Source of the DNA: Alkalispirochaeta americana
GTDB lineage: Bacteria; Spirochaetota; Spirochaetia; DSM-27196; Alkalispirochaetaceae
Reading direction: 5' to 3'
DNA: 64,000 bases
NCBI RefSeq assembly: GCF_900156105.1
Contig: NZ_FTMS01000018.1
Coordinates: forward strand, 1 to 64,000
Made by a program: the position numbers and the translations under genes. The notes beneath the pieces are model-generated. The model had not been told where the DNA came from. It worked only from the letters and a program-made list of their open reading frames with translations, and did no database searches. Positions 196 to 23,465 of this stretch are shown piece after piece (the first letter of the stretch is position 1; each line of letters starts with the position of its first letter).

Positions 196-1470
196 TCATC
201 CCCGAGGCAATTCTTCCAGAAGCCCCCGGATTTTTCGTTCCAGGAGATCCCTGGAAAAGTACCGGGTTGCAATATCCCTGTTCCGGCGGGCGCGGCGCTC
301 CTGCTCCCCGGGGTTATCAAGCAGGGCCTCTACCTCCTCCACAGCAGCCTGGGTAAGATATCCCTCGATCGTAACCGCCTGGAACCCCAGGGGCTCGATA
401 TCCTCGCGATACACCGAGTAGCGATTTACCAAGAGAGGTTTCCCGAAAAAAACCGCCTCCACAAAGGCGTTGCCAAAACCCTCGTAGAGCGAGGGGTAGG
501 TGACAAAGTCGGCCTGGACGTAGAGGTCCCAGAGGCTGTAGATCTTCTCCCCCTGCGCTGTGGTTCCCCGATCCAGGCCGATCCTGTCGGGTCGGAGCAT
601 CAGGGAAACCCCCAGTTGTTCGGCGTATTCGCAGATTCTCCTGGTATACTCGTCGCCTTCGTCGTATTCATGGTGGGGCACCACAAAGAGGGGGTTCCGG
701 TGAGCCAGGCGCGCCGCCAGCTCCAGGGCGTGTTCTATTCCCTTGCGGGCGATGATCCTCGTGGGCTGAAGCAGCACAAGCTGATCCGGGCCGATCCCCA
801 GGCTCTCGCGGAGATCGCTGTTGTATTCGTCCGGTCCGGGGGTGGGCAGAGAGAAGTCAAAGACGTTGGGGACCACCGGAGCCGTTACTCCCCGGCGCAG
901 CCCCAACTGCCGCTGGGCCTCGCGGTTGATCACGGCGTGACGCAGCGAAGGCAGGTCTGGCGGGAAGGCCAGGTGCAGAAGATCCTGAACGGCGCTCACC
1001 CGAAATCGATCCCGTTCCCAGGCAAAGTCGTGGTGGTGAGCCACTGCGGGAATCCCCGTCTCGGCGATGAACTCAGTGATCGCCAGCCCCAGGGGAACAT
1101 TCATGGGGATCGCCAGGGCGTTCTCGATCACCAGGAAGTCCGGGGCCAGGACCTCCCGAAAACGATAGAGTTCGTCCTTTAGTTCCCGGGCGATCCGCCA
1201 GAGAGCCTCCGTGGTTTCGGGGGTTCGGTGCTGGTTTTTGCCAAAGCACAGGCGTTGCAAGGATGCTATTTCGGGGTGGTCAAAGAAGGCCCGGGGCGTC
1301 ACCCAGGAGATCTCCCGGGGAAGATCGCTGAGACCCGAGAAATAGACTGCCTCGATTCCCAGGGCTTGCAGAACCCGGGCCCACTTGGTTGTCTCCAGGG
1401 ATACGCCATCGGTGCCGGCAAAGCGGGTCCCCACAAAGCCCGCCCGTTTCCAGGGGAATCTGTCTGTCAT
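196..1470 (-). CDS. GT4-family glycosyltransferase
   Basis: A 424-residue GT-B fold glycosyltransferase. The N-terminus VGTRFAGTDGVS is the glycine-rich acceptor loop, QPTRIIARKGIEHA carries the Arg and Lys that bind the donor phosphates, and LYEGFGNAFVEAV holds the ExxxxxxxE motif of family GT4 near residue 340. The motif HHHDFAWERDRF is typical of a subfamily found beside GH13_18 phosphorylases. Its ATG overlaps the stop of the phosphorylase gene (ATGA at 1467-1470), so the two are co-transcribed. Inference: it makes a glucosyl or mannosyl small-molecule glycoside, perhaps a compatible solute such as a glucosylglycerate derivative. The acceptor and donor cannot be read from sequence. Confidence 0.8.
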   Translation of the reverse strand: MTDRFPWKRAGFVGTRFAGTDGVSLETTKWARVLQALGIEAVYFSGLSDLPREISWVTPRAFFDHPEIASLQRLCFGKNQHRTPETTEALWRIARELKDELYRFREVLAPDFLVIENALAIPMNVPLGLAITEFIAETGIPAVAHHHDFAWERDRFRVSAVQDLLHLAFPPDLPSLRHAVINREAQRQLGLRRGVTAPVVPNVFDFSLPTPGPDEYNSDLRESLGIGPDQLVLLQPTRIIARKGIEHALELAARLAHRNPLFVVPHHEYDEGDEYTRRICEYAEQLGVSLMLRPDRIGLDRGTTAQGEKIYSLWDLYVQADFVTYPSLYEGFGNAFVEAVFFGKPLLVNRYSVYREDIEPLGFQAVTIEGYLTQAAVEEVEALLDNPGEQERRARRNRDIATRYFSRDLLERKIRGLLEELPRG

Positions 1471-3305
1471 GGCTTCATTTCCTTTCGTAGTAGCCAGAGT
1501 GTTTCAAAGGGAGCCAGGGAAATCTCCCCGACACCGCTATCTATGGTGGTATCGATTTCCCTGCGGGAGATCAGATCTTGCCAGCCTGGGCCGTCCAGGC
1601 CCGCTTTCGGGGCCGCTGCCGAGCCCGCTGTCGGGGCCACTACGGGAGCCGAAAGAGCGAGCCGGGCCGGGAGCGCAACCTGCCGGGCCGATGTGTTGGT
1701 GAGACACAGAATCTGGCGATCCCCGGTGGAGCGTAGCAGACCGAAGACCTCCCGGGGAAGGTTGGTCAGAACTGTCTGGGGTGCCTCGGGAGAAAAAAGA
1801 GGTTCCTCCTTCCTCAGGGCAATCAGATGTTTCAGGGCTGAAAAAACCCTGTGACGGCGCGAGGAGGGATCTGCCAGATCTGCCTCGAGCCGGGAGAGGG
1901 AGAGTTTTTCCCTGTTGATGGCCCGGTTGTGGCCGCAGACCCGGGGGCCGTCGTCCCAGTTTTCCGAACCTATCAGGCTGTGTACATAGATCCCCGGGAT
2001 TCCGGCCAGGGCCAGCATGATTGCGTGGGCAGAGATAAAGGCTCGAATCTGAAGCTCCCGGGGCAGCTCCGGATCGGCCAGGGCGCTGGCGTAGTTGATG
2101 TTGAGTTCGTAGGGGACCTCCCCCGAAGGGGTCGATTTCCATGAAACCAGACCTCCCCGGGCCTCGACCGTCCGCAGAAGCTCTGCCATCTCCCCGGCGG
2201 TGAGCCAGTCGGCGGCCGGGGTTACTCCGATCCCGTCGTGGGAAGCCAGAAAGTTGAGGAAGGTCCGCTGCTTTGAGGGTTCCGGGAGGGTCCTGGCCCA
2301 CCTGGTGAGGTGCTCGGCCGTGCCCGCCGTGAAAGCCTGCAGGGTCAGGGGGGGCAGGGCAAAATTATAGACCAGGTGGGCCTCGTTCCGGCCGTTTCCG
2401 AAGTAACTGATATTCTCCTGGTGGGGGACGTTGGTCTCCGTGAGAAGCACCGTGTTCAGGGCCATATGATCAACCAGGGCCCGTATCAGCTGCACAGCCC
2501 GGTGCGTGCAGGGGTGGTGAATACAGGGTGTCCCGTCTTCTTTCCAGAGATAGGCGATCGCGTCCAGGCGGATCATGGAAGCACCCCGTTCCACGTAAAG
2601 CAGGAGGGTGTCGATGATCCGGACCATCACCTCGGGGTTGGCGTAGTTCAAATCGACCTGATCCTCGCTGAAGGTGGTCCAGACGTGAAGCGCTTCCTCC
2701 CCGGGGTTGCTCCCGGGTCGGGTAAAGGGGGTGAGCAAAGGGTGAACCCGGGGCCGAACCACCCGGGACGTATCATAGTCAGCCGGCCGGTGGAGGTAAA
2801 AGTTCTCGTACCGGGGATCGCCCCGGAGAAAACCCTGGAACCACTCGTGGGAGGCGCTGGTGTGGTTCAAAACCAGATCAAAGGCCAGCCGGAAGGTTTT
2901 GGCCAGCTCCTGGATCGGTTCCCAGCTCCCAAGATCGGGGTTCACCCGGGTGTAATCGCTCACGGAAAAGCCATCGTCCGAGGTATAGGGAAAGAAGGGA
3001 AGAATATGAATGCAGGAAATAATTCCCTGGAAATATTCCCGGGCAATATGAAGGAGCCCTTCCAGGGGGGATGCCTCGGGTTTCTCCGGGATCGATCCCG
3101 GTTCGGGAAGAAACTGATCCCCGTAGGTGATGAGCACAATATCCTCCCGGGAGAAGGGTACTTCCCCAGAGGAATCGGACCCGCTGGAACGTCGAGAGGC
3201 CCGGCGATCCAGAACCTCCTCGAGGCTGTCCAGAAAACGGGCTGACTCCCCGGGGAAAAGTGCTTCGGCCAGGGATCTCACGGTGGTGTTGTCTTTGATG
3301 TTCAT
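1467..3305 (-). CDS. GH13 subfamily 18 sugar phosphorylase (sucrose phosphorylase-like)
   Basis: About 612 residues from ATG 3305 (AAGG lies 9 nt upstream; ATG 3314 is an alternative). Clan GH-H catalytic motifs are present: MIRLDAIAYLWKE contains the nucleophile Asp, LLTETNVPHQEN the acid/base Glu, and FLASHDGIGV the transition-state Asp. The family phosphorolyses alpha-glucosides (sucrose, glucosylglycerate, glucosylglycerol) to glucose-1-phosphate. The YLWKE-GTPCIH context resembles glucosylglycerate/sucrose-6-phosphate type members rather than classical sucrose phosphorylase, but this is a weak call. It is first gene of the minus-strand operon, divergent from a sugar ABC transporter. A cytosolic phosphorylase acting on the imported glycoside is the simplest model. 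Confidence 0.85.
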   Translation of the reverse strand: MNIKDNTTVRSLAEALFPGESARFLDSLEEVLDRRASRRSSGSDSSGEVPFSREDIVLITYGDQFLPEPGSIPEKPEASPLEGLLHIAREYFQGIISCIHILPFFPYTSDDGFSVSDYTRVNPDLGSWEPIQELAKTFRLAFDLVLNHTSASHEWFQGFLRGDPRYENFYLHRPADYDTSRVVRPRVHPLLTPFTRPGSNPGEEALHVWTTFSEDQVDLNYANPEVMVRIIDTLLLYVERGASMIRLDAIAYLWKEDGTPCIHHPCTHRAVQLIRALVDHMALNTVLLTETNVPHQENISYFGNGRNEAHLVYNFALPPLTLQAFTAGTAEHLTRWARTLPEPSKQRTFLNFLASHDGIGVTPAADWLTAGEMAELLRTVEARGGLVSWKSTPSGEVPYELNINYASALADPELPRELQIRAFISAHAIMLALAGIPGIYVHSLIGSENWDDGPRVCGHNRAINREKLSLSRLEADLADPSSRRHRVFSALKHLIALRKEEPLFSPEAPQTVLTNLPREVFGLLRSTGDRQILCLTNTSARQVALPARLALSAPVVAPTAGSAAAPKAGLDGPGWQDLISRREIDTTIDSGVGEISLAPFETLWLLRKEMKP

Positions 3306-3366
3306 GGGGTGCATCCTTCGCGGTCTCCCCGGGGGGGAGCGACAAGAGGTAATTTCATGATTGCCG

Positions 3367-3395
3367 ATTATAGACTGCCTTCTCCTTGGGTGCAA
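3367..3395 (-). promoter_or_regulatory. Sigma-70-type promoter of the phosphorylase operon
   Basis: Read on the minus strand: -35 TTGCAC (3395-3390), 17-bp spacer, -10 TATAAT (3372-3367), a perfect -10. The -35 overlaps the outer end of the left arm of the inverted repeat at 3393-3444. Confidence 0.75.
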
Positions 3396-3444
3396 TTGAT
3401 TTCTGAAAATTTCACCAAAGAGGAAATATTTCAGAAATCAATTG
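3393..3444. promoter_or_regulatory. 16-bp inverted-repeat operator shared by divergent promoters
   Basis: Left arm CAATTGATTTCTGAAA (3393-3408) and right arm TTTCAGAAATCAATTG (3429-3444) are perfect inverted copies 20 bp apart. GAAATATTTC (3423-3432) is an additional palindrome inside. Each outer end supplies the TTG of a -35 box, one on each strand, so a bound dimer or tetramer would cover both promoters. The cognate regulator is not next to the site. Confidence 0.7.
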
Positions 3445-3470
3445 ACATATCGGGGGAGGGGGCGTAGCAT
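3442..3470 (+). promoter_or_regulatory. Sigma-70-type promoter of the sugar ABC operon
   Basis: -35 TTGACA (3442-3447, perfect), 17-bp spacer, -10 TAGCAT (3465-3470, 4 of 6). The binding-protein gene starts 45 bp downstream with AGGAGG in front of its ATG. Confidence 0.65.
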
Positions 3471-3514
3471 GGGGAGAGACGATCGAAGAGACCATTGGAA
3501 CAGAGGAGGTTTTC

Positions 3515-4891
3515 ATGAAACACACACGAAGAGCGGCTGCCCTGATGGCGCTGCTTGTCTTTGCTGCCACGGCAGCCTTTGCCGGAGGCTCCCGGGAGCA
3601 GGCACCGCAGGAGCGAACCATTACACTTTGGACCACCGAAGAGCAGCCCGCACGAATGGAGGCGCAGCAAGCCATTGCCCGGCGCTTTCAGGACGCCACG
3701 GGAATAGCTGTGGAGGTGGTTCCTGTCACGGAAAACATGATGGGCGAGCGGGCCACAGCGGCCTTTTCCGCAGGAGATTTGCCGGATCTCATCTACCATC
3801 CCCTGAACTTTACCTACAGCTGGGCCGATGCAGGCATTCTTGATACCCAGGCCGCCACGGAGGTGGTCGAGCGTCTGGGAGCCGATACCTACGGTGCGGG
3901 CGTGCTGAACCTGGTGGAGTTCGAGGGCGACTACGCTGCCGTTCCCGTGGACGGCTGGGCACAGCTGGTGGTCTACCGGGCTGATCTCTTTGCCGAAAAA
4001 GGACTGGAGCCGCCCACCTCCTACGATGCGATCCGTCGCGCCGTGACGGCTCTGCACGATCCGCCCCGCTTTTACGGTGTTGTGGCAGCCACAGACCCCA
4101 GTCAGGTCTACATGATGCAAGTTTTCGAGCACGTGGCCATGGCCAACGGGGTTGATATCGTCGATTCCCGGGGAAACGTCACCCTCAATACGCCCCAAAT
4201 GCGGGAAGCCCTGGAGTTCTACAAGTTCCTGGCCGAGCACAGCCCTCCGGGAAACCTCTACTGGCAGCAGTCCCGCGAGCTCTACCACGATAACCGCACA
4301 GGCCTGATCATCTGGTCTCCCTTTATTCTGCACGGTCTGGCTGGTCTGCGCGATGGTGCTCCCGTTACCGGGTTTGGTGACGATCCCGCCACGGATGTTC
4401 TGGCAGGTCTCACCGGGTTTGCCACCAGCTTTGGTGGTCCTTCCAGCGCCGATGGTGCGGGCTGGGCCGATGTGCGGTACTTCGGGATCACCGTGGACGC
4501 CGATATTGAGGCTGCGCAGAAGTTTATCGAGTTTTCCATGAACGAGGCCTATACCGAAACCCTGGCGATCGCCGCCGTGGGGAAACACCCCGTGAGAATG
4601 GGCACGGTCGATGATCCCGAACGGTACGTCCGGGAGTGGGCCGAGCTGGAAGTGGGCGACGAGCGCCGCATGAAGCTCTCTGATATCTACGAACCCGATG
4701 TTATCATGGATATGCTCAGTGGCCTCGAACGGGGATCCCGCTGGGGCTACGAGCACGGCTACGGCTATCTCACGTCGCGGCTCTACGAGACCCGGGTTAT
4801 CGCCGAGCTCTTGCGCGAGTACATCGACGGAGAGCGGTCGGTGGAAGAGACAATGCAGCTCATGCAGCAAGAGACGGAACGGCTGAAATAA
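3515..4891 (+). CDS. Sugar ABC transporter periplasmic binding protein (family 1)
   Basis: 458 residues with a cleavable signal peptide (MKHTRR, then a hydrophobic stretch ending AFA before GGSREQ). The body ERTITLWTTEEQPARMEAQQ, followed by AIARRFQDATGI, is the standard opening of MalE/UgpB-like extracellular solute-binding proteins, and its length is normal for them. ATG 3515 is preceded by AGGAGG at optimal distance. It captures a carbohydrate outside the inner membrane and delivers it to the two permeases that follow. No ATPase gene is present in the operon, so a shared MsmK/UgpC-type ATPase elsewhere must energise it. The divergent phosphorylase hints that the ligand is an alpha-glucoside, but this is inference. 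Confidence 0.85.
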   Translation: MKHTRRAAALMALLVFAATAAFAGGSREQAPQERTITLWTTEEQPARMEAQQAIARRFQDATGIAVEVVPVTENMMGERATAAFSAGDLPDLIYHPLNFTYSWADAGILDTQAATEVVERLGADTYGAGVLNLVEFEGDYAAVPVDGWAQLVVYRADLFAEKGLEPPTSYDAIRRAVTALHDPPRFYGVVAATDPSQVYMMQVFEHVAMANGVDIVDSRGNVTLNTPQMREALEFYKFLAEHSPPGNLYWQQSRELYHDNRTGLIIWSPFILHGLAGLRDGAPVTGFGDDPATDVLAGLTGFATSFGGPSSADGAGWADVRYFGITVDADIEAAQKFIEFSMNEAYTETLAIAAVGKHPVRMGTVDDPERYVREWAELEVGDERRMKLSDIYEPDVIMDMLSGLERGSRWGYEHGYGYLTSRLYETRVIAELLREYIDGERSVEETMQLMQQETERLK

Positions 4892-4918
4892 CAGGCCGGT
4901 GGACCGGTGCCGGATGTT

Positions 4919-4941
4919 CCGGGGGGGGAGGCCCCCCTCGG
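4919..4941 (+). other. Strong intercistronic hairpin after the binding-protein gene
   Basis: A 10-bp stem (one G.U pair) from CCGGGGGGGG (4919-4928) and CCCCCCTCGG (4932-4941) with a 3-nt loop and no T-tract. It lies in the 103-bp gap between the binding-protein and first permease genes. Such hairpins commonly protect the upstream message or reduce readthrough, giving more binding protein than permease. Confidence 0.55.
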
Positions 4942-4994
4942 GATTTCCCGTGTCTGCCGGCAGGTCTTCCGATCATGACGAAAGAGGTTCGCCT

Positions 4995-6302
4995 GTGAAT
5001 AAAAAAGCACATCTATTGAAAAGGTTCCGGTCCTTCCGGACCGGAACATCCCTGGAACAGAGCGAGGCCCGTCTGGCCTTCTTCATGCTCCTTCCGGCCT
5101 TCACCATCGTAGCCATGGTTATTTTGTTTCCCGTGGTGGCGAACTTCTGGATCAGTTTCAAGTCCGTGGGTCTCGGGGATCTGCGTCCTCCCTCGGCGGT
5201 GGTGCGCGAGCAGGTAACGCAGATGCCCGAGTCCGTCGGTGAGGAACTGCACCTGACCTATCGCATGAGAAACTCAAGCCGCACTGTTCCCATTCAGCAG
5301 GTGCGCATCGAAGCATCGCTTCCTCGGGGACTCTCGGTGGTGGAGCTTCCCCCGGGATGGGCCGTTCAGGAGGGGATCCTTCAGGCCGATCGGGGTCGCT
5401 GGGAGCAGGGATTCTCTGAGGATATCTCCTTCAGGTTTCGTGCCGGAGAGGATTTCTTCACCTCTCCCGTGGATTCCCGCAGGCCCACCAGCCCCGAGGC
5501 AACGGTTCGGGCCAGAAACCCCCTGATGAGCCTGAATTTTACCCTGGATAATTTCCGCTTTGTCATTACCGCCAGGGAGTTCTGGCGCACCCTGGGAGTG
5601 AGTTTTTTCTATCCCTTCATGGGAGCCCTGGGATCGATCCTCCTGGGAATCCTGTCAGCGCAATTGCTCAACCGCTCCTTTCGTGGTCAAGGGCTGCTGC
5701 GGGGGCTCTTTCTCTTTCCCTATGTGGCGCCGGTTATCGCCGTTGCCTTTGCCTGGGTCTTTTTCCTGGATCCCTTCAGTGGCACCGTGAACGCCCTGGC
5801 CCTGGAACTGGGAGCGTTCCGGGAACCGATCTCTTTCCTGAGCGAGCGGTCCTACCGGTTCTCGTTTCTTGGAATCTCCCTGCGGATACCCCTGGCCCTG
5901 GTGGTGGTGATTCTCTTTGACTCCTGGCGGTATTTTCCCTTTGCTTTCCTCTTTATTCTGGCACGGTTTCAGGCCATTCCCGACCAGATCTACGAGTCCG
6001 CCGATGTCGATGGAGCCGGGCCGTTCAGAAAGTTCTTCTCCATTACCCTTCCGCAGCTGCGCAGTGTGGTGGCCACGCTCTTTCTGCTTCGCTTCATGTG
6101 GACCTTCAACAAGTTCGACGATGTCTTCTTGCTCACAGGAGGAGCGGCAGGAACGCGAACGCTGCCGATTCAGGTCTACGACAACGCCTTCGGCAGGGCT
6201 GACATCGGAGCCGGCTCGGCGGCCTCGGTGATTCTCTTTGCGCTTCTGGCACTTTTTATGGCTGTATATTTTCGCACCCTCCGGGAGGTGGATGATGAGT
6301 AA
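4995..6302 (+). CDS. Sugar ABC transporter permease with an inserted extracytoplasmic domain
   Basis: 435 residues from GTG 4995 (AGAGG 7 nt upstream). An earlier in-frame ATG at 4899 would add an unlikely arginine-rich leader. Membrane helix 1 is residues 27-50. The motif NFTLDNFRF, which normally follows helix 1 by about 20 residues, comes only at 181-189. The extra 120 residues (about 58-178) are hydrophilic and beta-rich (LHLTYRMRNSS, VRIEASLPRGLSV, EDISFRFRA), resembling an Ig/fibronectin-like sandwich. The EAA loop ESADVDGAGPFRKF near residue 335 is the contact site for the ATPase. MalF of E. coli also carries a periplasmic Ig-like insert, but in another loop. Co-transcribed with the second permease (8-bp overlap). 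Confidence 0.85.
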   Translation: MNKKAHLLKRFRSFRTGTSLEQSEARLAFFMLLPAFTIVAMVILFPVVANFWISFKSVGLGDLRPPSAVVREQVTQMPESVGEELHLTYRMRNSSRTVPIQQVRIEASLPRGLSVVELPPGWAVQEGILQADRGRWEQGFSEDISFRFRAGEDFFTSPVDSRRPTSPEATVRARNPLMSLNFTLDNFRFVITAREFWRTLGVSFFYPFMGALGSILLGILSAQLLNRSFRGQGLLRGLFLFPYVAPVIAVAFAWVFFLDPFSGTVNALALELGAFREPISFLSERSYRFSFLGISLRIPLALVVVILFDSWRYFPFAFLFILARFQAIPDQIYESADVDGAGPFRKFFSITLPQLRSVVATLFLLRFMWTFNKFDDVFLLTGGAAGTRTLPIQVYDNAFGRADIGAGSAASVILFALLALFMAVYFRTLREVDDE

Positions 6303-7563
6303 GCACCTTTCTACACCCCTTTTGCAGCACCGGCCGGGCCCGCAGGGGCTTCTTGTTTCGGCCCTTTTGGGCGGGATTGTAACGGCTGTGACCCTCTCTC
6401 TCTGGGCGCTGGTGGCAACCCTGGGAAGCTCTCTGGTTTTCTCTCTCCCCCTGCTCCCTCTGGCGGCAGCTGGTATTCTCCCGGGGTGTGCCGTGGTTTT
6501 TATTCGCTGGCGTGTTCCCCGTGCCACGCCCTGGGCCAGCTGGATCGCGGGAGCTCTTCTGGGGGGGCCCTGGGTGCTGGCAGGCGGATTTCTTCCGGCC
6601 GGTCTTTCCCTCCAGGCAGCTCCTGCCCTGGCAGTTCAACAGATCGTTGCCTTTGCCCTGGCAGGGCGGCTCACGGCAGGAGTGCTCAGGGGCGTTCCTT
6701 CCCGGGGAATCAGGAAGGACCACCTTGAGACCGTTGCGGTCCGGTTGCTCCGAAGTGGCGGGTTGATTTTCTTTGTCTGGATCGTGGTCTTCCCCTTTCT
6801 TTTCATGGTCTCCTCCAGCCTGAAGAGCCGGGCCGACTATCTGCGGGATCCCATTAATCTGGGGGTGAACCTTCTGCAGTCGCCGGAGCAACTCTTTCAC
6901 GGGTATATCCAGGTTCTGGGGCGGTTCAACTTCGGCAGGTATATTCTCAATAGCAGCCTTATTGCCGTTGCCACGGTCTTTGTTGCCCTGGTTCCGGCAA
7001 TCCTCGGGGCCTATGCGGTCACGCGGTTGCGCTTCCCGGGCAGAACCCTCCTTTCCAAATCTATCTTGCTGATCTATATGTTTCCCGCCATTGTGCTGGT
7101 GATTCCCCTCTATAGTGTCTTTACCCAACTGGGGCTTCGGGATACCCGCTTTGGTCTCCTGATCGTCTACGCCGCCATGACCATCCCCGTGGCGCTCTAT
7201 ATGTTGCGCAGCTACTTCCAGTCGCTTCCGGCAGACCTGGAGGAGGCGGGGCTCATCGACGGCCTCACCCGGCTGGGAGTCATCTGGAGGATCACCATTC
7301 CCCTGAGTATGCCCGCTATCGCCTCGGTGGGGCTCTACGTGTTCATGATCGCCTGGAACGAGTTTCTCTTTGCCTTCATGTTCCTGGACACGCCGGAGAT
7401 CTTCACCCTGAGCCGGGGCATGATCATGCTCGATGACCAGGAGGTTCCCCGGCAGTTCCTCATGGCGGGAGCAACGGTCATCACCGTTCCCATCATGATC
7501 CTCTTTTTCCGCTTCCAGCGGCTTCTGGTAGGAGGCCTCACCGCAGGAAGCGTGAAAGGATAG
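6295..7563 (+). CDS. Sugar ABC transporter permease with N-terminal membrane extension
   Basis: 422 residues from ATG 6295 (GGAGG just upstream; ATG 6292 also possible). The C-terminal 280 residues are a standard MalG-like permease: FPFLFMVSSSLKS, then the EAA loop LEEAGLIDGLTRLGVIWRI. Members usually start directly at that first helix. Here about 140 additional residues precede it with roughly four hydrophobic segments (about 17-40, 44-70, 81-100, 108-127). The ending GLTAGSVKG is typical of the family. Its start overlaps the stop of the preceding permease, so translation is coupled. Confidence 0.85.
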   Translation: MSKHLSTPLLQHRPGPQGLLVSALLGGIVTAVTLSLWALVATLGSSLVFSLPLLPLAAAGILPGCAVVFIRWRVPRATPWASWIAGALLGGPWVLAGGFLPAGLSLQAAPALAVQQIVAFALAGRLTAGVLRGVPSRGIRKDHLETVAVRLLRSGGLIFFVWIVVFPFLFMVSSSLKSRADYLRDPINLGVNLLQSPEQLFHGYIQVLGRFNFGRYILNSSLIAVATVFVALVPAILGAYAVTRLRFPGRTLLSKSILLIYMFPAIVLVIPLYSVFTQLGLRDTRFGLLIVYAAMTIPVALYMLRSYFQSLPADLEEAGLIDGLTRLGVIWRITIPLSMPAIASVGLYVFMIAWNEFLFAFMFLDTPEIFTLSRGMIMLDDQEVPRQFLMAGATVITVPIMILFFRFQRLLVGGLTAGSVKG

Positions 7564-7617
7564 ATGAAAACGGAAGAGACCTGGGGGAAGGTCAAGATCT
7601 TGTATACAAGTTATTGA
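7564..7617 (+). CDS. Possible 17-residue leader peptide
   Basis: ATG 7564 directly follows the permease stop and is preceded by AAAGGA. It encodes 17 residues ending in TGA 7615-7617, which overlaps the TTG at 7614 that may start the epimerase (TTGA). The GntR operator lies inside it. It may simply couple translation of the epimerase, or it may be chance. Confidence 0.25.
   Translation: MKTEETWGKVKILYTSY
7599..7610. promoter_or_regulatory. Predicted GntR (NanR-like) operator in front of the epimerase
   Basis: Perfect 12-bp palindrome CTTGTATACAAG, identical to the site at 9754-9765 before nanA. No good promoter surrounds it. It may act as a roadblock on transcripts arriving from the ABC operon. 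Confidence 0.65.
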
Positions 7618-8867
7618 CCAAATCTCCCGGCTCTTTCATGATAGACACCATGAATGCAGCAGCTGCGCAGGCCCTGGGCGATCACGCCCGGCGGCAGATA
7701 ACGGATCAGATACTTCCCTTCTGGCTCCCTCACTCGATCGACCGAACCCACGGCGGGTTTCTCTTTTGTCGTGACGAAGACGGCACCGTGATCGATACGG
7801 ACAAACCCGTCTGGATCCATGGTCGCTTCGTCTGGCTCCTGTCGGTCCTCTACTGTGAAATGCAGCAGAACCCCCAATGGCTCGAAGCAGCCCGTCAGGG
7901 CCTCGACTTCCTCAACACCTTTGGCGTGGACCGGCGCGACGGAAACAGGGAAGGGCGGTTCTTCTTCCGCCTCGACCAGCGCGGCCGGGGACTGATCAAG
8001 CGCAAACGCTACCTCTTCTCGGAATGCTTCGCCGTGGCTGCCAACGCAGCCTTTTCGCGGGCCTCGGGCGAGGAACGCTACCTCGCCGAAGCCCTTCGGT
8101 GCCTGGCCACCATAGAGCGCTATCGCACCACCCCGGGGCTGCTGGAACCAAAAGTTGACCCCCAGGTACGACCCGTGAAAGGACTGGCCCTGCCCATGAT
8201 CATGGTCTGGGTGCTCCAGGAGCTGCGCCTGGCCGACCCCCGGAACGCCCCGGACTACACCCGGCGGATAGACCGCGAAATCGACGAGATCCAGGGGTTT
8301 CTCTCCTTCGAACACTGTGCCGTGCTGGAAATCCTGGGAGCAAAAGGCGAAATCCTGGACCACTTCGAGGGCCGAACCCTGAACCCCGGCCACGCCCTGG
8401 AAGCAGCCTGGTTCATCCTGCGCGAAGCCTCCCTGACCGCCCCCGGCCCCCGTCGTGACGCCCTCATCCGCCAGGGACTCACCATGGCAGAGTGGATGTG
8501 GCAACGGGGATGGGACGATGAATACGGAGGATTCTTCTACTTCCGGGATCTCTTCGGGCGATCTGCCACGGAATACTGGCACGACATGAAATTCTGGTGG
8601 CCCCAGAACGAAGCAGCCCTGGCCGCCCTCTACGCCTGGAAGCTCTCGGGAGAACCCCGATGGTACGAACGATTCGCCCGGGTGCTCTCGTGGCAGGAAG
8701 AACACTTCATCGACCCCCTCCACGGAGAATGGTACGGATACCTCCACCGGGACGGTTCAATCTCGTCGCGGATCAAGGGTAATATGTTCAAAGGGCCCTT
8801 TCACATCCCCCGGATGTACCATGCCATAGCCACTGTAACAGGAGATCATCTGCGTGAGCCGGGATAA
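7614..8867 (+). CDS. AGE-family epimerase, probably N-acylglucosamine 2-epimerase
   Basis: Up to 417 residues, normal for the (alpha/alpha)6-barrel AGE family. The start is uncertain: TTG 7614, ATG 7638 or ATG 7650, none with a good ribosome site. Family landmarks are KPVWIHGRFVWLLSVLY (sugar-binding Arg/Trp), NPGHALEAAW with one catalytic His, and FKGPFHIPRMYH with the second. These enzymes interconvert N-acetylmannosamine and N-acetylglucosamine. Placed with nanA and a SiaPQM transporter, it would take the ManNAc released by the lyase to GlcNAc, replacing NanE/NanK. A mannose or cellobiose epimerase is the alternative. Its 3' end overlaps the regulator gene. Confidence 0.75.
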   Translation: MTKSPGSFMIDTMNAAAAQALGDHARRQITDQILPFWLPHSIDRTHGGFLFCRDEDGTVIDTDKPVWIHGRFVWLLSVLYCEMQQNPQWLEAARQGLDFLNTFGVDRRDGNREGRFFFRLDQRGRGLIKRKRYLFSECFAVAANAAFSRASGEERYLAEALRCLATIERYRTTPGLLEPKVDPQVRPVKGLALPMIMVWVLQELRLADPRNAPDYTRRIDREIDEIQGFLSFEHCAVLEILGAKGEILDHFEGRTLNPGHALEAAWFILREASLTAPGPRRDALIRQGLTMAEWMWQRGWDDEYGGFFYFRDLFGRSATEYWHDMKFWWPQNEAALAALYAWKLSGEPRWYERFARVLSWQEEHFIDPLHGEWYGYLHRDGSISSRIKGNMFKGPFHIPRMYHAIATVTGDHLREPG

Positions 8868-9510
8868 CGATCTGGTCGAGCGAATATACCAGGACCTCCG
8901 GAACGGCATCGTCCAGGAAACGATCAAACCGGACCAGAAACTCTCGGAAACCACCCTCTCCAGGAGCTACAACTGCAGCCGGACACCCATCCGCGAAGCC
9001 TTCAAGCGGCTCCAGCACGAAGGCCTTCTCCTGACCATCCCCAAATCGGGAACCTACGTCCGCAAGGAAACCCCGGCCCAACTCGTGGAGATCGAACAAG
9101 TTCGCACCTATCTGGAAAAACTCGCCTTCCGCCTCGCCATAAAAACCATCACCCCCCGGGAGCTGGCCGAACAGGAAGAGCGGGTAGAGAAGATGCAGCA
9201 CCTCCTGGACCAGCCCGCCTTCTCGCCCCGGGAATTCTCGGAAGTCCACTTCGCCTACCACCGGGGGCTCATAGTAGCCTCGCGAAACGACCTGCTCTGC
9301 CACACCTTTGACGGACTCAACCTCCGCTACTCAAACCTCTTTCAGGAAGGAGCCGGCACCAGCATGGACGTGGTCCGCACCTCCAACCGCGAACACGCCC
9401 TGATCATCGACGCGCTCCGGGCCGGGGACTGCTCCCTGGGCGAAGACCTGATCGAAACCCACCTGTGGAAACACAAGAAAATCAGGAACAAGTACCCCGT
9501 AGACCTCTGA
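8854..9510 (+). CDS. GntR/FCD-family transcriptional regulator of the sialic-acid locus
   Basis: 218 residues from GTG 8854 (GGAG upstream), overlapping the epimerase end by 14 bp. Residues 1-70 form a winged helix-turn-helix: ERIYQDLRNGI, SRSYNCSRTPIREAFKRLQ, and the wing GLLLTIPKSGTYV. The remainder is an all-helical FCD ligand domain with metal-binding-type His residues (HFAYHRGL, NREHALI, ETHLWKHK). FCD regulators typically bind TNGTATACNA-like palindromes, exactly what is found at 7599, 9732 and 9754. The likely inducer is Neu5Ac or a breakdown product, which is inference from the neighbours. Confidence 0.85.
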   Translation: MSRDNDLVERIYQDLRNGIVQETIKPDQKLSETTLSRSYNCSRTPIREAFKRLQHEGLLLTIPKSGTYVRKETPAQLVEIEQVRTYLEKLAFRLAIKTITPRELAEQEERVEKMQHLLDQPAFSPREFSEVHFAYHRGLIVASRNDLLCHTFDGLNLRYSNLFQEGAGTSMDVVRTSNREHALIIDALRAGDCSLGEDLIETHLWKHKKIRNKYPVDL

Positions 9511-9593
9511 AGGACCTCCCCGGGCAATCAGAGCCGCTCCCGGGCAATCCGGGAGACCCCGCAACATCCCAACCCCCGACAACCACCTGAAAA

Positions 9594-9698
9594 GGGGGGC
9601 TGCGCCCCCCTGTCTCCAGCCCGGCTGATCGCCCCGGCTTTCCCGGCTCTGTCGCCGCCGCCGGGCCGGGGCGGCCGGTCTTCCGCCACCCCCCCGGG
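9594..9698. repeat. Dispersed repeat element, copy 1 (with hairpin)
   Basis: Bases 9605-9698 match 25905-25998 at 93 of 94 positions. The element contains the heptamer CCCGGCT three times. It is flanked on the left by a 7-bp stem with a 3-nt loop (9594-9610). Read on the minus strand this hairpin is followed by TTTT, so the element ends in a terminator-like structure in that direction. Here it fills the gap between the regulator gene and the nanA promoter. Confidence 0.8.
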
Positions 9699-9723
9699 AG
9701 GGCAAAAAACCCGAAAAACGGGC

Positions 9724-9765
9724 TTGACAATCTTGTATACTAGTTTAGAATAACTTGTATACAAG
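9724..9765 (+). promoter_or_regulatory. nanA-siaPQM promoter with two GntR operators
   Basis: -35 TTGACA (9724-9729, perfect), 16-bp spacer, -10 TAGAAT (9746-9751, 5 of 6). Operator 1 CTTGTATACTAG (9732-9743, one mismatch) fills the spacer. Operator 2 CTTGTATACAAG (9754-9765, perfect) covers the expected start of transcription. The two sites are 22 bp apart, two helical turns, suggesting cooperative repression. Confidence 0.8.
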
Positions 9766-9779
9766 ATTGAGGAGCGTAC

Positions 9780-10676
9780 ATGTCTGCACTTCCCGGCGGG
9801 ATCATCCCCGCCCTGCTTACCCCGGTCGACTCCAGGGGAGATATCCTGAGGGATCACCTGGTCTCACTGCTGGAATACACCCTGGACTGCGGAGTCTCCG
9901 GTTTCTACGTTGGTGGCAGCACCGGCGAATGCTTTCTCATGTCCGTGAGTCAGCGCAAAGAGGTTCTGTCCATCGCCTCGGAAACCGTTTCAGGACGAGT
10001 CCCCCTGATCGCCCACATCGGGGCTCAAAACGTGGATGATTCTTTTTACCTGGCCGAGGAGGCTCACGCCCTGGGCTACAGCGCCATATCGGCGGTCACG
10101 CCCTACTACTACGGGTTTTCCTTTCAGGAAGTCTTCTCCTACTACCAGGAGCTCTGCCAGATTTCGCAACTTCCCATGGTGATGTATTTCATTCCCGCCC
10201 TGACGGGCAGAACCTTCACCAGCCAGGAGATCGCCAGACTCGCCGCCATTCCCGGGCTGGAGGGGATCAAGTTCACCGACGGAGACCTCTTCAAACTCGA
10301 ACGGCTTCGCGGACAGTTGCCGGATTTTGTCATCTATAGCGGCTACGACGAACTGCTCCTGCCCAGCCTCAGCCTGGGTGTGAACGGTGCCATCGGAAGT
10401 ACCTACAACGTCACGGCACCCCTGGTTATCGCCCTGTGGGAGTCCTTCCGGGAGGGCGATCTGGCCAGGGCAGGGCACCTTCAGAGGGAGCTCAACACCA
10501 TTATAGAGATGCTGGTGGGAAATAATCTGTACCCCACCCTGAAAGATCTCCTGGCACGGCGGGGGTTGGGAGGGGGGCTCTGCCGGAGACCCTTCCTGCC
10601 ACTCACAGCTTCCCAGAAGGAGGAATCAGCCCGAATCGATACCCATATCACCAGGGTCATTTCGTCCCTGGGATAA
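9780..10676 (+). CDS. nanA: N-acetylneuraminate lyase
   Basis: 298 residues, a class I aldolase of the DHDPS/NAL superfamily that splits N-acetylneuraminate into ManNAc and pyruvate in the cytosol. Features seen: the carboxylate-binding loop GGSTGECF (45-52), VTPYYYGFSF (106-115), Tyr136 in MYFIPAL, the Schiff-base Lys164 in GIKFTDGD, and YSGYDELLLPSLSLGVNGAI. These follow E. coli NanA closely, with Tyr and Lys at almost the same positions, and differ from the DapA at 59566-60441. ATG 9780 has GAGGAG upstream. First gene of a nanA-siaP-siaQ-siaM transcript. Confidence 0.9.
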   Translation: MSALPGGIIPALLTPVDSRGDILRDHLVSLLEYTLDCGVSGFYVGGSTGECFLMSVSQRKEVLSIASETVSGRVPLIAHIGAQNVDDSFYLAEEAHALGYSAISAVTPYYYGFSFQEVFSYYQELCQISQLPMVMYFIPALTGRTFTSQEIARLAAIPGLEGIKFTDGDLFKLERLRGQLPDFVIYSGYDELLLPSLSLGVNGAIGSTYNVTAPLVIALWESFREGDLARAGHLQRELNTIIEMLVGNNLYPTLKDLLARRGLGGGLCRRPFLPLTASQKEESARIDTHITRVISSLG

Positions 10677-10705
10677 AGAACTGGATTGTTTCCTGGATGA
10701 TCTGC

Positions 10706-10722
10706 CTCGGGCAAAGCCCGGG
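10706..10722 (+). other. Hairpin between nanA and siaP
   Basis: CTCGGGC (10706-10712) pairs with GCCCGGG (10716-10722) over an AAA loop, with no T-tract. It probably acts as a processing or stability element between the lyase and transporter genes. Confidence 0.4.
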
Positions 10723-10774
10723 ATCAGTCTCCCGGAATAGATACAATGTGAAGTACCATCAAGGAGGAGAAAAA

Positions 10775-11767
10775 ATGAAACGGCTATTGGCAGCGAGCAT
10801 AATCGGAATGGTTCTCGCAGCAGGACTCTTCGCGGGAGGAACAAAGGAAGCGGTCGAGGGGCAACCCCGGAACTTCAAGATGGGCCTTGTGGCGGGAACG
10901 GCCTCGATAGAGTACGAAGCAGCCAGCTTCTTTGCCGACCGGCTGGAAGTCCTGAGCGACGGAGCCATGACAGTGAGCCTCTTTCCTGGTTCGCAACTGG
11001 GGGACGACCGGGCCATGCTGGAGCAGGTCGCCGCAGGCGTGCTGGATTTTACCTTCGGCGAGACGGGCCGCATGGGATTGTGGGTTCCCTACGCTGAAAT
11101 TTTCCAGTATCCCTTTGTCTTCGATTCCTTTGAGCATCTTCTGGCATCCCTTGCGACCCCCTTTGGAGAGAAGATGAACCAGGATTTCCGTGATCGGGGC
11201 TGGAGACTCCTGGCGAACGCCTATAACGGAACGCGCCAGACCTCGTCAAACCGGGCAATCAACAGCGTTTCCGACATGCGGAACCTCAAGTTGCGCGTGC
11301 CCAACGCCAAGGCAAACATGGCCTTTGCCCGTAACAGCGGAGCAGCTCCCACGCCCATGGCTTTCGGAGAGGTCTATTTGGCCCTGCGGACCAACGCCGT
11401 GGACGGCCAGGAGAACCCCCTTCCCGCAATCTACGCCATGAAGTTCTACGAAGTGCAGTCTCACATCGCCCTGACAGGCCATATCATCAACGATCAGAAC
11501 TACATCATCAGCGAAACCCTCTGGCAAGCCCTCCCGGGCGGAGACCAGGAGATCATTCGCCAGGCCGCACAGGAAGCCGCCGAGCTCCACACCCGTCGCT
11601 TCGTGGAACAGGAAGAGACCATGCTCGCCTACTTTCAGGAGCAAGGCCTGACCATCACTCGTCCTGACCGCGAGGGCTTCCGCAGAGCCAACATGCCCCT
11701 CGTTCACGAGTACGAGAAGGACCACGGCTCCGAAGCAATGGACGCGATCAACAGCGTCCGGCCATAA
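10775..11767 (+). CDS. siaP: Sialic acid TRAP transporter binding protein
   Basis: 330 residues from ATG 10775 (AAGGAGGAG upstream), with a signal peptide ending near AGLFAGG. The body matches H. influenzae SiaP motifs: NGTRQTSSNRAINS, LKLRVPNAKAN (Arg174 corresponds to the carboxylate-clamping Arg of TRAP binding proteins), PTPMAFGEVYLAL and TNAVDGQENPL, followed by KFYEVQ and IINDQNY. This level of detail supports N-acetylneuraminate as the ligand rather than a generic C4-dicarboxylate. It acts in the periplasm and hands the ligand to SiaQM. Confidence 0.9.
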   Translation: MKRLLAASIIGMVLAAGLFAGGTKEAVEGQPRNFKMGLVAGTASIEYEAASFFADRLEVLSDGAMTVSLFPGSQLGDDRAMLEQVAAGVLDFTFGETGRMGLWVPYAEIFQYPFVFDSFEHLLASLATPFGEKMNQDFRDRGWRLLANAYNGTRQTSSNRAINSVSDMRNLKLRVPNAKANMAFARNSGAAPTPMAFGEVYLALRTNAVDGQENPLPAIYAMKFYEVQSHIALTGHIINDQNYIISETLWQALPGGDQEIIRQAAQEAAELHTRRFVEQEETMLAYFQEQGLTITRPDREGFRRANMPLVHEYEKDHGSEAMDAINSVRP

Positions 11768-11814
11768 TTGCTCCCGGGTTCGGAATTCGAACAGCGACAA
11801 TCACGATTCTGTTT

Positions 11815-11840
11815 CTGGCCGGGAGAGAGCTCCCGGCCAG
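11815..11840 (+). other. Strong hairpin between siaP and siaQ
   Basis: Perfect 11-bp stem CTGGCCGGGAG (11815-11825) and CTCCCGGCCAG (11830-11840) with a 4-nt loop and no T-tract. It lies midway in the 109-bp gap after the binding-protein gene, the same architecture as at 4919-4941. It probably sets a surplus of SiaP mRNA over membrane-component mRNA. Confidence 0.6.
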
Positions 11841-11876
11841 CAGGGCAGAAAGACCCGAAAAGCTTGAAGGAAAGGT

Positions 11877-12359
11877 ATGTATCCTACACTACGACGCGCC
11901 GAAGAGGCCCTGGCAGTTTTATTATTTTCCGTCATTTTGCTTCTGATTCTCTGGCAGATTATATCGCGCTACATCCTGGGAGTGCCCGTTCCCTGGACGG
12001 ACGAACTCTCGCGGCTTCTCTTTGTGTATATGGGAGTTCTGGGTGCTCATCTGGCACAGCGGGACAAAATCCACGTGCGCATCGACATGATTCTTTCCCG
12101 CCTCGCGCCGGGAGCGTATCGAGTTGTGGAGATCCTCTTCAACCTGATCATACTGGCCTGCTGCATCTTCCTGATCCGGGAAGGAATGATTCTGGCAGCA
12201 CGAAAGGCGGTCATCTACATGATAACTATCAACGTGAGTTCCTGGTTTCTCTTTATCCCCTTGGCAATCCTGGGGGCGCTGGTGTCCCTTGAGGTGGGCC
12301 TCCAGACCCGGGATCTCCTTCGCCAGACCAGCGGCGCCGGGGAGGCAGACCGATGCTGA
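11877..12359 (+). CDS. siaQ: TRAP transporter small membrane subunit
   Basis: 160 residues with four predicted membrane helices (LAVLLFSVILLLILWQ, LLFVYMGVLGAHLAQR, IILACCIFLIRE, FLFIPLAILGALVSL), the DctQ-family layout. The motif PVPWTDELSRLLFVYMGVLG is diagnostic of the family. ATG 11877 has AAGGA upstream. It overlaps the large-subunit gene by 7 bp and forms with it the sodium-driven membrane complex. Confidence 0.88.
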   Translation: MYPTLRRAEEALAVLLFSVILLLILWQIISRYILGVPVPWTDELSRLLFVYMGVLGAHLAQRDKIHVRIDMILSRLAPGAYRVVEILFNLIILACCIFLIREGMILAARKAVIYMITINVSSWFLFIPLAILGALVSLEVGLQTRDLLRQTSGAGEADRC

Positions 12360-19229: not shown

Positions 19230-20174
19230 CTACTGAGCCGTCACGGTCACGGTGAGGTTTTCTGTGTATTCTCCGCTGGTGGCGTCCCGGACATCGCCGA
19301 TCTCGAAGTATAGTTCGTAGCGGTCTCCTGCGATGGAAGTCGGAGAACCTGATCCGATCTCGGCATGGCCCGAAGAAAGATCCCTGATAAGGCCATTCAC
19401 GCGCATCGTGTACGGAATAGCCTCTCCCCTCGTCACGGCACTCCCCGGTGTGGCTCCCTCAAGGACCAGAAACCCCGAGTTTGGCGAGGTCACGCTCAGG
19501 CGGTAGTTGATATCGGTCACCACCACCAGATCAACCTCCTCGGAACGACCCTGCTGGAGTTCTCCAAAATCCAGATGGGCAACATCGGAAAGCGGATCAA
19601 AGGGTTGGCCGCGTCCAACCACGGATAGCCGTACCACCGGAGGAACAGTTACCACGATATGGAGGGGTTCTTCTTCCAGGGAGGGGGTTGTGGCGGGTAT
19701 TCCCCGGTAAAGACGCGTCTGGACCGTGTCGGTATATGTTCCGGCAGGGGGAAACTGACCCTGGGGAATCCGTACCACCAGGGGAAAGGGTTCCTCCTGA
19801 TTCCCCCGGAACTCGTGATAGATCAGATGGCGCTGCCCTGCAGGTCCATCAAGGTCGGTGAGAACCCGGTCGTCAGCCTCGGGGTCCAGAAGCTGATACT
19901 CCAGGGCCGCACCTCCGGGGCCGGTGAGTCGGCGCTGGCTGAAGGAGGCTGAGCCCCCCGCAGAGAAACCGATACCGAACTCAACATTACGGCCGGAGAC
20001 GATAATATCCCCGGTGATGTTGTTTCCCAGGTATTGATCGTAGACTGCGGTGATCGTGCCGGGCGGCGCTCCGAAGGAGGGGCCCTGCGAGGCCTGGCCA
20101 AAGAGGAGGCCTGGCCCGAGGACCATGAGGGAGGCTGCTGCTATCAGGTATATCGATGGGAATGTCTGTTTCAT
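19230..20174 (-). CDS. Two-domain pilus tip subunit/adhesin (CsuE-like, spore-coat-U fold)
   Basis: 314 residues with a signal peptide ending near LLFGQASQ. Two beta-rich domains follow: about 35-170, closing with PPAGTYTDTVQTRLY, and about 180-314, closing with SGEYTENLTVTVTAQ. Both endings are typical last strands of SCPU-fold (spore coat protein U) subunits of archaic chaperone-usher pili. In Csu pili the tip protein has exactly this adhesin-plus-pilin arrangement. Its ATG overlaps the usher stop (ATGA at 20171-20174). Role in attachment is inferred from the family. Confidence 0.75.
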   Translation of the reverse strand: MKQTFPSIYLIAAASLMVLGPGLLFGQASQGPSFGAPPGTITAVYDQYLGNNITGDIIVSGRNVEFGIGFSAGGSASFSQRRLTGPGGAALEYQLLDPEADDRVLTDLDGPAGQRHLIYHEFRGNQEEPFPLVVRIPQGQFPPAGTYTDTVQTRLYRGIPATTPSLEEEPLHIVVTVPPVVRLSVVGRGQPFDPLSDVAHLDFGELQQGRSEEVDLVVVTDINYRLSVTSPNSGFLVLEGATPGSAVTRGEAIPYTMRVNGLIRDLSSGHAEIGSGSPTSIAGDRYELYFEIGDVRDATSGEYTENLTVTVTAQ

Positions 20175-22699: not shown

Positions 22700-22700
22700 C

Positions 22701-23465
22701 CTAGTCAATAAGCCGTACGTTATAGTCCACATAGAAAGTCCCCTTGGCCCACAGGTCGGGCAAGGGAAGAACCTCTTCCAGGGTTCTTCCTGCCAGAAGG
22801 TTCCGGCCCGCCAGAATCGGGAGCTGAGCTCCCTGAAAGACCTCTTCGGCAATCATCTTTTCGCCGTCGAAAAGACGCAGATGTATGGAAAGATCGCCCA
22901 GGATTCCGTGGGTGGCACCGCGATTTTCAAACCTTACCAGAACGCCCTGGAACGATCCGTTTTGGTACCACCTCTCGGCTCCCGCAAGAATAACATCAGG
23001 AGAGAACCTGCCAGGCCGAACATAAACGCTTCCCTCGTACCGAAAAAGCACGTTGATCCCGGACTGGCGGTCGCCACCGGAGATATCAACCGGCAACTGC
23101 TCGGCAATTATCCTGAAGGCCTGCTCACGCTCTATTCCCCCAGGACCGGTATACTGGACCCGCACGGCCTGGGTCTGGCCGGGAGCGAGCACCATCCGTG
23201 AGGGAAAGACCACCCACTTATCGGAGGCGTCTTCCCGAACCTCTTTTCCCCGGGCATTGTGATCCCGGGTGGTCATGCGGACCTGAACAGCAATCTCCCG
23301 CTCCTGGGTGTTGGTTACCCGATACGTATGGAGCCTCCCCGCCTGGGAGGTTGTAAAGACCTGCGTCAGCGGTTCCAGCGAAAGAGCCCGCAGTGAAGGG
23401 GCTATTGGAAAAAGAATCATCGCCCCCAGGGCGATGATTCGAAGTGACCGTGCAACAGAACCCAT
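22701..23465 (-). CDS. Periplasmic pilus chaperone (PapD/CsuC-like)
   Basis: 254 residues from ATG 23465, which has GGAGG six bases upstream. The longer frame from 23555 lacks this. The signal peptide ends near PSLRALS. The two Ig domains show the usual chaperone elements: TYRVTNTQEREIAVQVRM, DKWVVFPSRMVLAPGQTQAV (the binding groove strand before RVQYTG), and EQAFRIIAEQLPVD with the conserved FRIxxEQLP motif. It stabilises subunits by donor-strand complementation. Encoded directly between the pilin and usher genes. Confidence 0.88.
   Translation of the reverse strand: MGSVARSLRIIALGAMILFPIAPSLRALSLEPLTQVFTTSQAGRLHTYRVTNTQEREIAVQVRMTTRDHNARGKEVREDASDKWVVFPSRMVLAPGQTQAVRVQYTGPGGIEREQAFRIIAEQLPVDISGGDRQSGINVLFRYEGSVYVRPGRFSPDVILAGAERWYQNGSFQGVLVRFENRGATHGILGDLSIHLRLFDGEKMIAEEVFQGAQLPILAGRNLLAGRTLEEVLPLPDLWAKGTFYVDYNVRLID

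Follow-up and report, generated by a model that had tools for sequence, protein, structure and literature searches.

A divergent DUF11-type Ig-like domain predicted in the first periplasmic loop of a MalF-type permease from Alkalispirochaeta americana, and its possible role in positioning the solute-binding protein

The window analysed here is a stretch of 64,000 nucleotides from Alkalispirochaeta americana (positions 1 to 64,000 of contig NZ_FTMS01000018.1, assembly GCF_900156105.1). Near one end it encodes a solute-binding protein, two permeases of an ABC importer and two linked enzymes. The features, in window coordinates, are as follows.

196..1470, minus strand: putative GT4 glycosyltransferase, mannosylglucosylglycerate synthase-like (206 bits, which falls short of the family cut-off, 640)
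1467..3335, minus strand: putative GH13 phosphorylase with a TETN motif (43% identity to E. coli YcjM, annotated as a glucosylglycerate phosphorylase)
3515..4891, plus strand: solute-binding protein (SBP_bac_1) just upstream of P1, by family match; homologue in 77/80 loci
4995..6302, plus strand: ABC permease P1 (MalF/SugA type, BPD_transp_1), 435 aa, from the ORF, the family match and solved relatives
5049..5156, plus strand: helix 1 of P1, residues 19-54, equivalent to MalF TM3 and SugA TM1 (AF2 model and alignments)
5163..5537, plus strand: inserted periplasmic segment, residues 57-181 (homologue alignment and AF2 model)
5196..5513, plus strand: predicted beta-sandwich proper, divergent DUF11/Ig-like, residues 68-173 (profiles and AF2)
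5535..5567, plus strand: re-entry into the membrane, with NFTLDNFRF and the interface helix, residues 181-191 (translation and AF2 model)
5580..6296, plus strand: rest of the transmembrane core, residues 196-434 (solved relatives and AF2 model)
6295..7563, plus strand: partner permease P2 (MalG type, 422 aa), by family match; homologue in 77/80 loci
6295..6741, plus strand: hydrophobic N-terminal extension of P2, about 150 aa, which MalG lacks (family matches and hydropathy)

The frame at 4995-6302 is free of stops along its whole length and is likely the P1 gene, with a GTG start and a product of 435 aa. The sole Pfam match of P1 is to BPD_transp_1 (PF00528; residues 215-424, E 8.2e-17), and searches of family libraries for importer permeases gave only generic or below-cut-off matches. 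Among solved sequences, the closest were SugA of LpqY-SugABC (residues 184-427) and MalF (residues 214-419), and the AF2 model has the fold of a type I sugar importer permease (SugA, Z 24.2; MalF, Z 22.3). A search of the same genome returned 37 matches to P1; the 36 others begin at query residue 172 at the earliest, and none spans the whole insert. Downstream of the importer genes, at 7614-12359, lies an apparent sialic-acid-type catabolic cluster with an AGE-family epimerase, a GntR regulator, TRAP transporter genes and an N-acetylneuraminate lyase (312 bits, above the cut-off of 281). Two further ORFs, of 314 and 893 aa, on the minus strand at 19230-22852 appear by eye, from their translations, to encode a pilus-like secreted subunit and an outer-membrane usher-like protein.

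In P1, 126 residues separate helix 1, as placed by the AF2 model, from the NFTLDNFRF motif in the translation. The original prediction had given about 120, and its limits for the insert (5160-5540) were correct to within one codon. Between the alignment columns of K56 and N186 there are 129 residues in the window copy and 126-137 in 24 insert-bearing representatives, as against 13-20 in 31 insert-free permeases. The AF2 model of the permease, built with 48 aligned family members (pLDDT 89.4, pTM 0.79), shows ten-residue pLDDT blocks of 92-98 over residues 61-180 and predicts eight strands in the insert (residues 68-76, 84-93, 100-108, 113-117, 122-125, 128-136, 141-150 and 168-173), in line with its earlier description as beta-rich. 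When modelled alone, the insert was again predicted to form a beta-sandwich (pLDDT 94.1, pTM 0.84). A disordered insert is rejected on the strength of this confident predicted fold, obtained both in isolation and within the permease. Thus, the models support a folded Ig-like beta-sandwich in the first periplasmic loop. Together with the beta-sandwich fold neighbours described below, they bear out the earlier proposal of a beta-sandwich-like domain at this site.

A survey of homologues had also been suggested. We collected 83 family rows, ranked by similarity to the insert-bearing query, that comprise the 80 best among 512 encoding stretches plus the copy in the window and two from its genus; two pairs are duplicates (L009 = L013 and L010 = L017), leaving 81 distinct loci. 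The insert was present, at 122-133 aa, in 83 of 83 rows, and hence in all 81 distinct relatives retrieved. It is therefore neither a chance feature nor an assembly error, and an assembly artefact is ruled out; since the query carried the insert, the same rows give no estimate of how often it has been lost. Alphaproteobacteria were the commonest source of the best 80 of 512 loci, which also came from Spirochaetota, Deinococcota (Thermaceae and Trueperaceae) and SAR324.

Searches of sampled genomes with the insert profile gave matches in 1/296 Spirochaetota, that one being the genome of the window itself, and in 8/289 genomes of the class of Martelella, including that of a Martelella locus (L061, genome G310). 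In the phylum of the Trueperaceae genome G304, 40 of 111 sampled genomes were matched: 31 strongly (E 2.8e-28 or better), one partially, close to the end of a contig (1.7e-12), and another 8 only weakly (1.5e-9 to 8.5e-6). The frames matched in these 8 are 769-2326 aa long and may encode DUF11-type surface proteins. Eleven genomes that carry a family locus had one match each, and the Deinococcota genome G674 had two. Within the genus, the insert-bearing permease was found in three of seven genomes; two more encode a relative with a short loop, whose match begins only at residue 185 (39-43% identity). A Thermaceae locus (L143) encodes a 503-aa permease frame with a normal TM1-TM2 loop and a long N-terminal extension. 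Most insert representatives (42 of 48) have a pair of cysteines, at positions 122 and 131, which suggests a disulphide across a hairpin. The window copy has W and A at these positions (5358-5360 and 5385-5387), and the six representatives without the pair (the window copy, L010, L014, L018, L019 and L031) are all from Spirochaetota.

At E<=1, DUF11 (PF01345) was matched by 30 of 48 family members (best 5.6e-7) and DUF7933 by 24; B_ant_repeat (TIGR01451) was matched by 26 of the 48. When six members were re-scored, two lay above the DUF11 cut-off of 24.6 bits. The window's own copy had no DUF11 match by itself, its only match being a weak one to DUF7092 (E 0.06), so that it is assigned to DUF11 by way of its relatives. 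We conclude that the insert, judged from profile matches at the level of the family, is a divergent DUF11 Ig-like domain, in which Y89, N93, S95, P110 and G112 are what we take to be DUF11 hallmark residues. Against PDB sequences the insert profile gave a best E of 0.22, which we judged to be chance. The fold neighbours of the insert model are beta-sandwiches. Integrin alpha domains were best among the matches listed (Z 10.0); others were the adhesin CLIPPER domain 9ifr (Z 9.9, rmsd 2.5, 105 aligned), mu2 adaptin, the cellulose-binding domain 6qfs (Z 9.0) and chitin-binding domains. These Z values reflect a common arrangement and are no indication of function.

DUF11 repeats occur in surface proteins, in which they may act as tethers. 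Given this kinship, the weak profile matches in long frames, and the adhesin and the cellulose- and chitin-binding domains among the fold neighbours, the insert could act like an adhesin on the envelope side and anchor the importer to the cell wall, S-layer or a glycan. We regard such a role as improbable: the insert is kept across phyla with differing envelopes, always as a single unit in an importer, and its fold neighbours are generic beta-sandwiches.

We then compared the insert with the transmembrane core. In two comparisons dN/dS was 0.22-0.24 for the insert and 0.05-0.08 for the core, with dS near saturation in the second; in a third, dS of the insert was not computable. Mean column identity was 42% for the insert and 61% for the whole permease. 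Purifying selection acts on the insert, but less strongly than on the core. Both a dN/dS some three to five times the core value and the lower identity would fit a tolerated passenger that serves no specific function, but the ratio is still far below 1, and the length of the insert is maintained in every row, although retrieval favours insert-bearing relatives. A passenger is the least probable of the readings considered here. Apart from the DUF11 hallmarks, the best-kept residues of the insert (L60, D62, L63, R64, E72 and N175) sit near its membrane-proximal ends.

The insert of MalF, MalF-P2, had been placed by the original prediction in a later loop. This was wrong. In a structural alignment, residues 21-429 of the model superimpose on residues 58-509 of MalF (4jbw_F; Z 22.3, rmsd 2.5, 280 aligned), and alignment to the E. 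coli MalF sequence places the two ends of the insert at MalF residues 92 and 263, that is, between MalF TM3 and TM4. MalF has extra N-terminal helices and its TM3 is the counterpart of helix 1 of P1; thus, the insert and MalF-P2, given as residues 91-271 in excerpts of PMC3150292, share the homologous loop. The domains that fill this loop appear unrelated. Alignment of the insert family with E. coli MalF 93-275, a single P2 sequence, gave an hhalign probability of 0.5%. MalF_P2 (PF14785) was not one of the 20 listed Pfam families that the 48 members matched, and it had no match in the genome of the window, with a positive E. coli control. A divergent MalF-P2 is therefore unsupported. The fold of MalF-P2 is Ig-like, and the absence of MalF-P2 among the 50 fold neighbours listed for the isolated insert domain is uninformative about relatedness.

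A tree of 56 permease cores, from which the insert columns had been removed (24 insert-bearing, 31 insert-free and MalF), placed the 24 insert-bearing permeases on one side of a branch with support of 100/99. Together with two insert-free permeases of the same genus they formed a larger group (100/98). MalF is a long branch in this tree, and an AU test did not reject a clade of MalF plus the insert-bearing permeases (p 0.348). The original prediction had described the insert as a solution independent of that in MalF. This may hold, because the filling domain looks unrelated to MalF-P2, and the insert-free sister clade agrees with it; the AU test, however, permits the grouping with MalF. Two insertions at one site are the simplest reading, given the sequences, the lengths and the sister clade that lacks the insert.

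The partner permease, P2, is also unusual. The MalG match to P2 starts at MalG residue 19, and the N-terminal extension that precedes the common region has no confident Pfam match and, by hydropathy, probably lies in the membrane. Residue 157 of the window P2 corresponds to position 126 or beyond in 75 of 79 rows; L029, L036, L042 and L071 were dropped for long or broken frames. The lengths were obtained by ungapped extrapolation, and some of the assumed starts probably lie too far upstream. One insert-free sister operon was examined; its partner frame is 323 aa, too short for a long extension.

We also asked whether distances within the insert co-vary with those within the binding protein or the P2 extension, using 18, 21 or 44 representatives from 70 usable rows of the 83; sets of 4 representatives were unstable (+0.93 and -0.41) and were left out. 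With the transmembrane core controlled for, no excess co-variation of insert and binding protein was found (partial -0.14 to -0.19). The 90 fastest columns of the binding protein gave +0.20 with the insert, or +0.12 with a fast-site control, which makes this test weak either way. Insert and P2 extension co-varied beyond the core in the sets of 18, 21 or 44 (partial 0.22-0.31), with at most 2/500 or 1/300 permutations as high. This co-variation, and the fact that the P2 proteins of the family have the long extension while MalG and the 323-aa partner do not, would suit a role in assembly or stability, in which the insert packs against P2, perhaps against its N-terminal helices, and has no part in docking the binding protein. 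However, fast sites of the binding protein co-varied likewise with the insert (0.20) and even more with the extension (0.37). The signal may thus be a rate artefact, and we have set it aside as an indication of contact. Moreover, the probable location of the hydrophobic extension in the membrane speaks against such packing. We consider an assembly role possible but rather unlikely.

What the importer carries is suggested by the linked enzymes. An alphaproteobacterial operon (L041) encodes a LacI-type regulator, binding protein, P1, P2, an MGH1-like GH63 enzyme and a MalK/UgpC-type ATPase. Its GH63 matches PF22422 (E 6e-115) and scores 337.7 bits against the glucosylglycerate hydrolase family NF047898 (cut-off 550). 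Relatives of this glucosylglycerate/mannosylglycerate-hydrolase-like enzyme were found in 51/80 loci (locus counts out of 80 refer to the best 80 of the 512 encoding stretches) and relatives of the ATPase in 48/80. GH13 was found in 11/80 loci (E 1e-20), and 10 of these 11 neighbours have a (T/S)ETN motif, the exception being a partial match. Excerpts of PMC7178133 describe (T/S)ETN as a motif of glucosylglycerate phosphorylases. One or both of GH63 and GH13 occurred in 58/80 loci and neither in 22/80, several of which are truncated. Over residues 61-546, the GH13 of the window and E. coli YcjM share 43% identity, and a glycosyltransferase-GH13 pair like that on the minus strand at 196-3335 lies directly after P2 in several Thermaceae loci (for example L030, L032, L033 and L037). 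From the linked enzymes, the substrate is most likely a glucosylglycerate-type osmolyte. No importer ATPase was found among the genes examined beside the importer (196-12359); a UgpC/MalK-type ATPase is encoded on another contig of the genome (504.7 bits, above cut-off).

Part of MalF-P2, one segment, is in direct contact with MalE according to excerpts of PMC3150292, and an Ig-like domain on the same loop would adjoin the binding protein. This makes docking or positioning the leading inference for the insert. In our working model, an ancestor of this MalF/MalG-like type I importer family would have gained a DUF11-type Ig-like domain, once on the simplest reading, in the periplasmic TM1-TM2 loop of its MalF-like subunit. 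Located next to the outer opening of the pore, the domain would form a rigid platform in the periplasm that holds or positions the importer's own solute-binding protein on its two permeases, in the manner of MalF-P2 with MalE. The membrane-proximal position of the best-kept residues and the lack of excess co-variation with the binding protein count against docking, and we assign a probability of about 0.5 to the acquired domain being a platform that positions the binding protein in a glucosylglycerate-type importer family.

No description of such a permease insert was found in the open-licence PMC literature, as far as excerpts of it go. The findings suggest that domains have entered the periplasmic TM1-TM2 loop of MalF-type permeases on more than one occasion, and the family provides a large natural set for asking what a domain like MalF-P2 contributes to docking of the binding protein. 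The DUF11 insert together with the long partner also offers a sequence handle for a probably osmolyte-specific importer in several phyla. More tentatively, and with the odds against it, a surface-protein DUF11 domain may have been captured once by an osmolyte-importer lineage and turned into a dock for the binding protein at the loop that holds the unrelated enterobacterial MalF dock, which, with the N-terminal multi-helix module of P2, would set these systems apart as a separate class of type I importer.

Several known systems resemble this importer in part. Among solved proteins, SugA of LpqY-SugABC (7cad, 8ja7) comes nearest in its transmembrane core, both in sequence and in structure, but is without the insert, its residues 19-302 aligning with residues 21-434 of the model (8ja7_A, Z 24.2). 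The E. coli YcjNOP/YcjM system is related, with identities of 25% in the binding protein, 34% and 40% in the two permeases and 43% in the phosphorylase. However, YcjO, encoded beside YcjM, has no insert, and residue 16 of YcjP matches residue 156 of P2, so that it is without the long extension; a glucosylglycerate-type substrate class thus does not require the insert. DUF11 and B_ant_repeat domains are linked to the insert by the profile matches (30/48 and 26/48 members), but here one unit lies within a permease loop, in contrast to the repeats of surface proteins. MalF-P2 (PF14785) is, like the insert, a large periplasmic insertion in the same homologous loop. It differs in length (170 versus 129 residues between the same columns), and its relation in sequence to the DUF11-type insert is undetectable; the insert is likely a convergent counterpart of MalF-P2.
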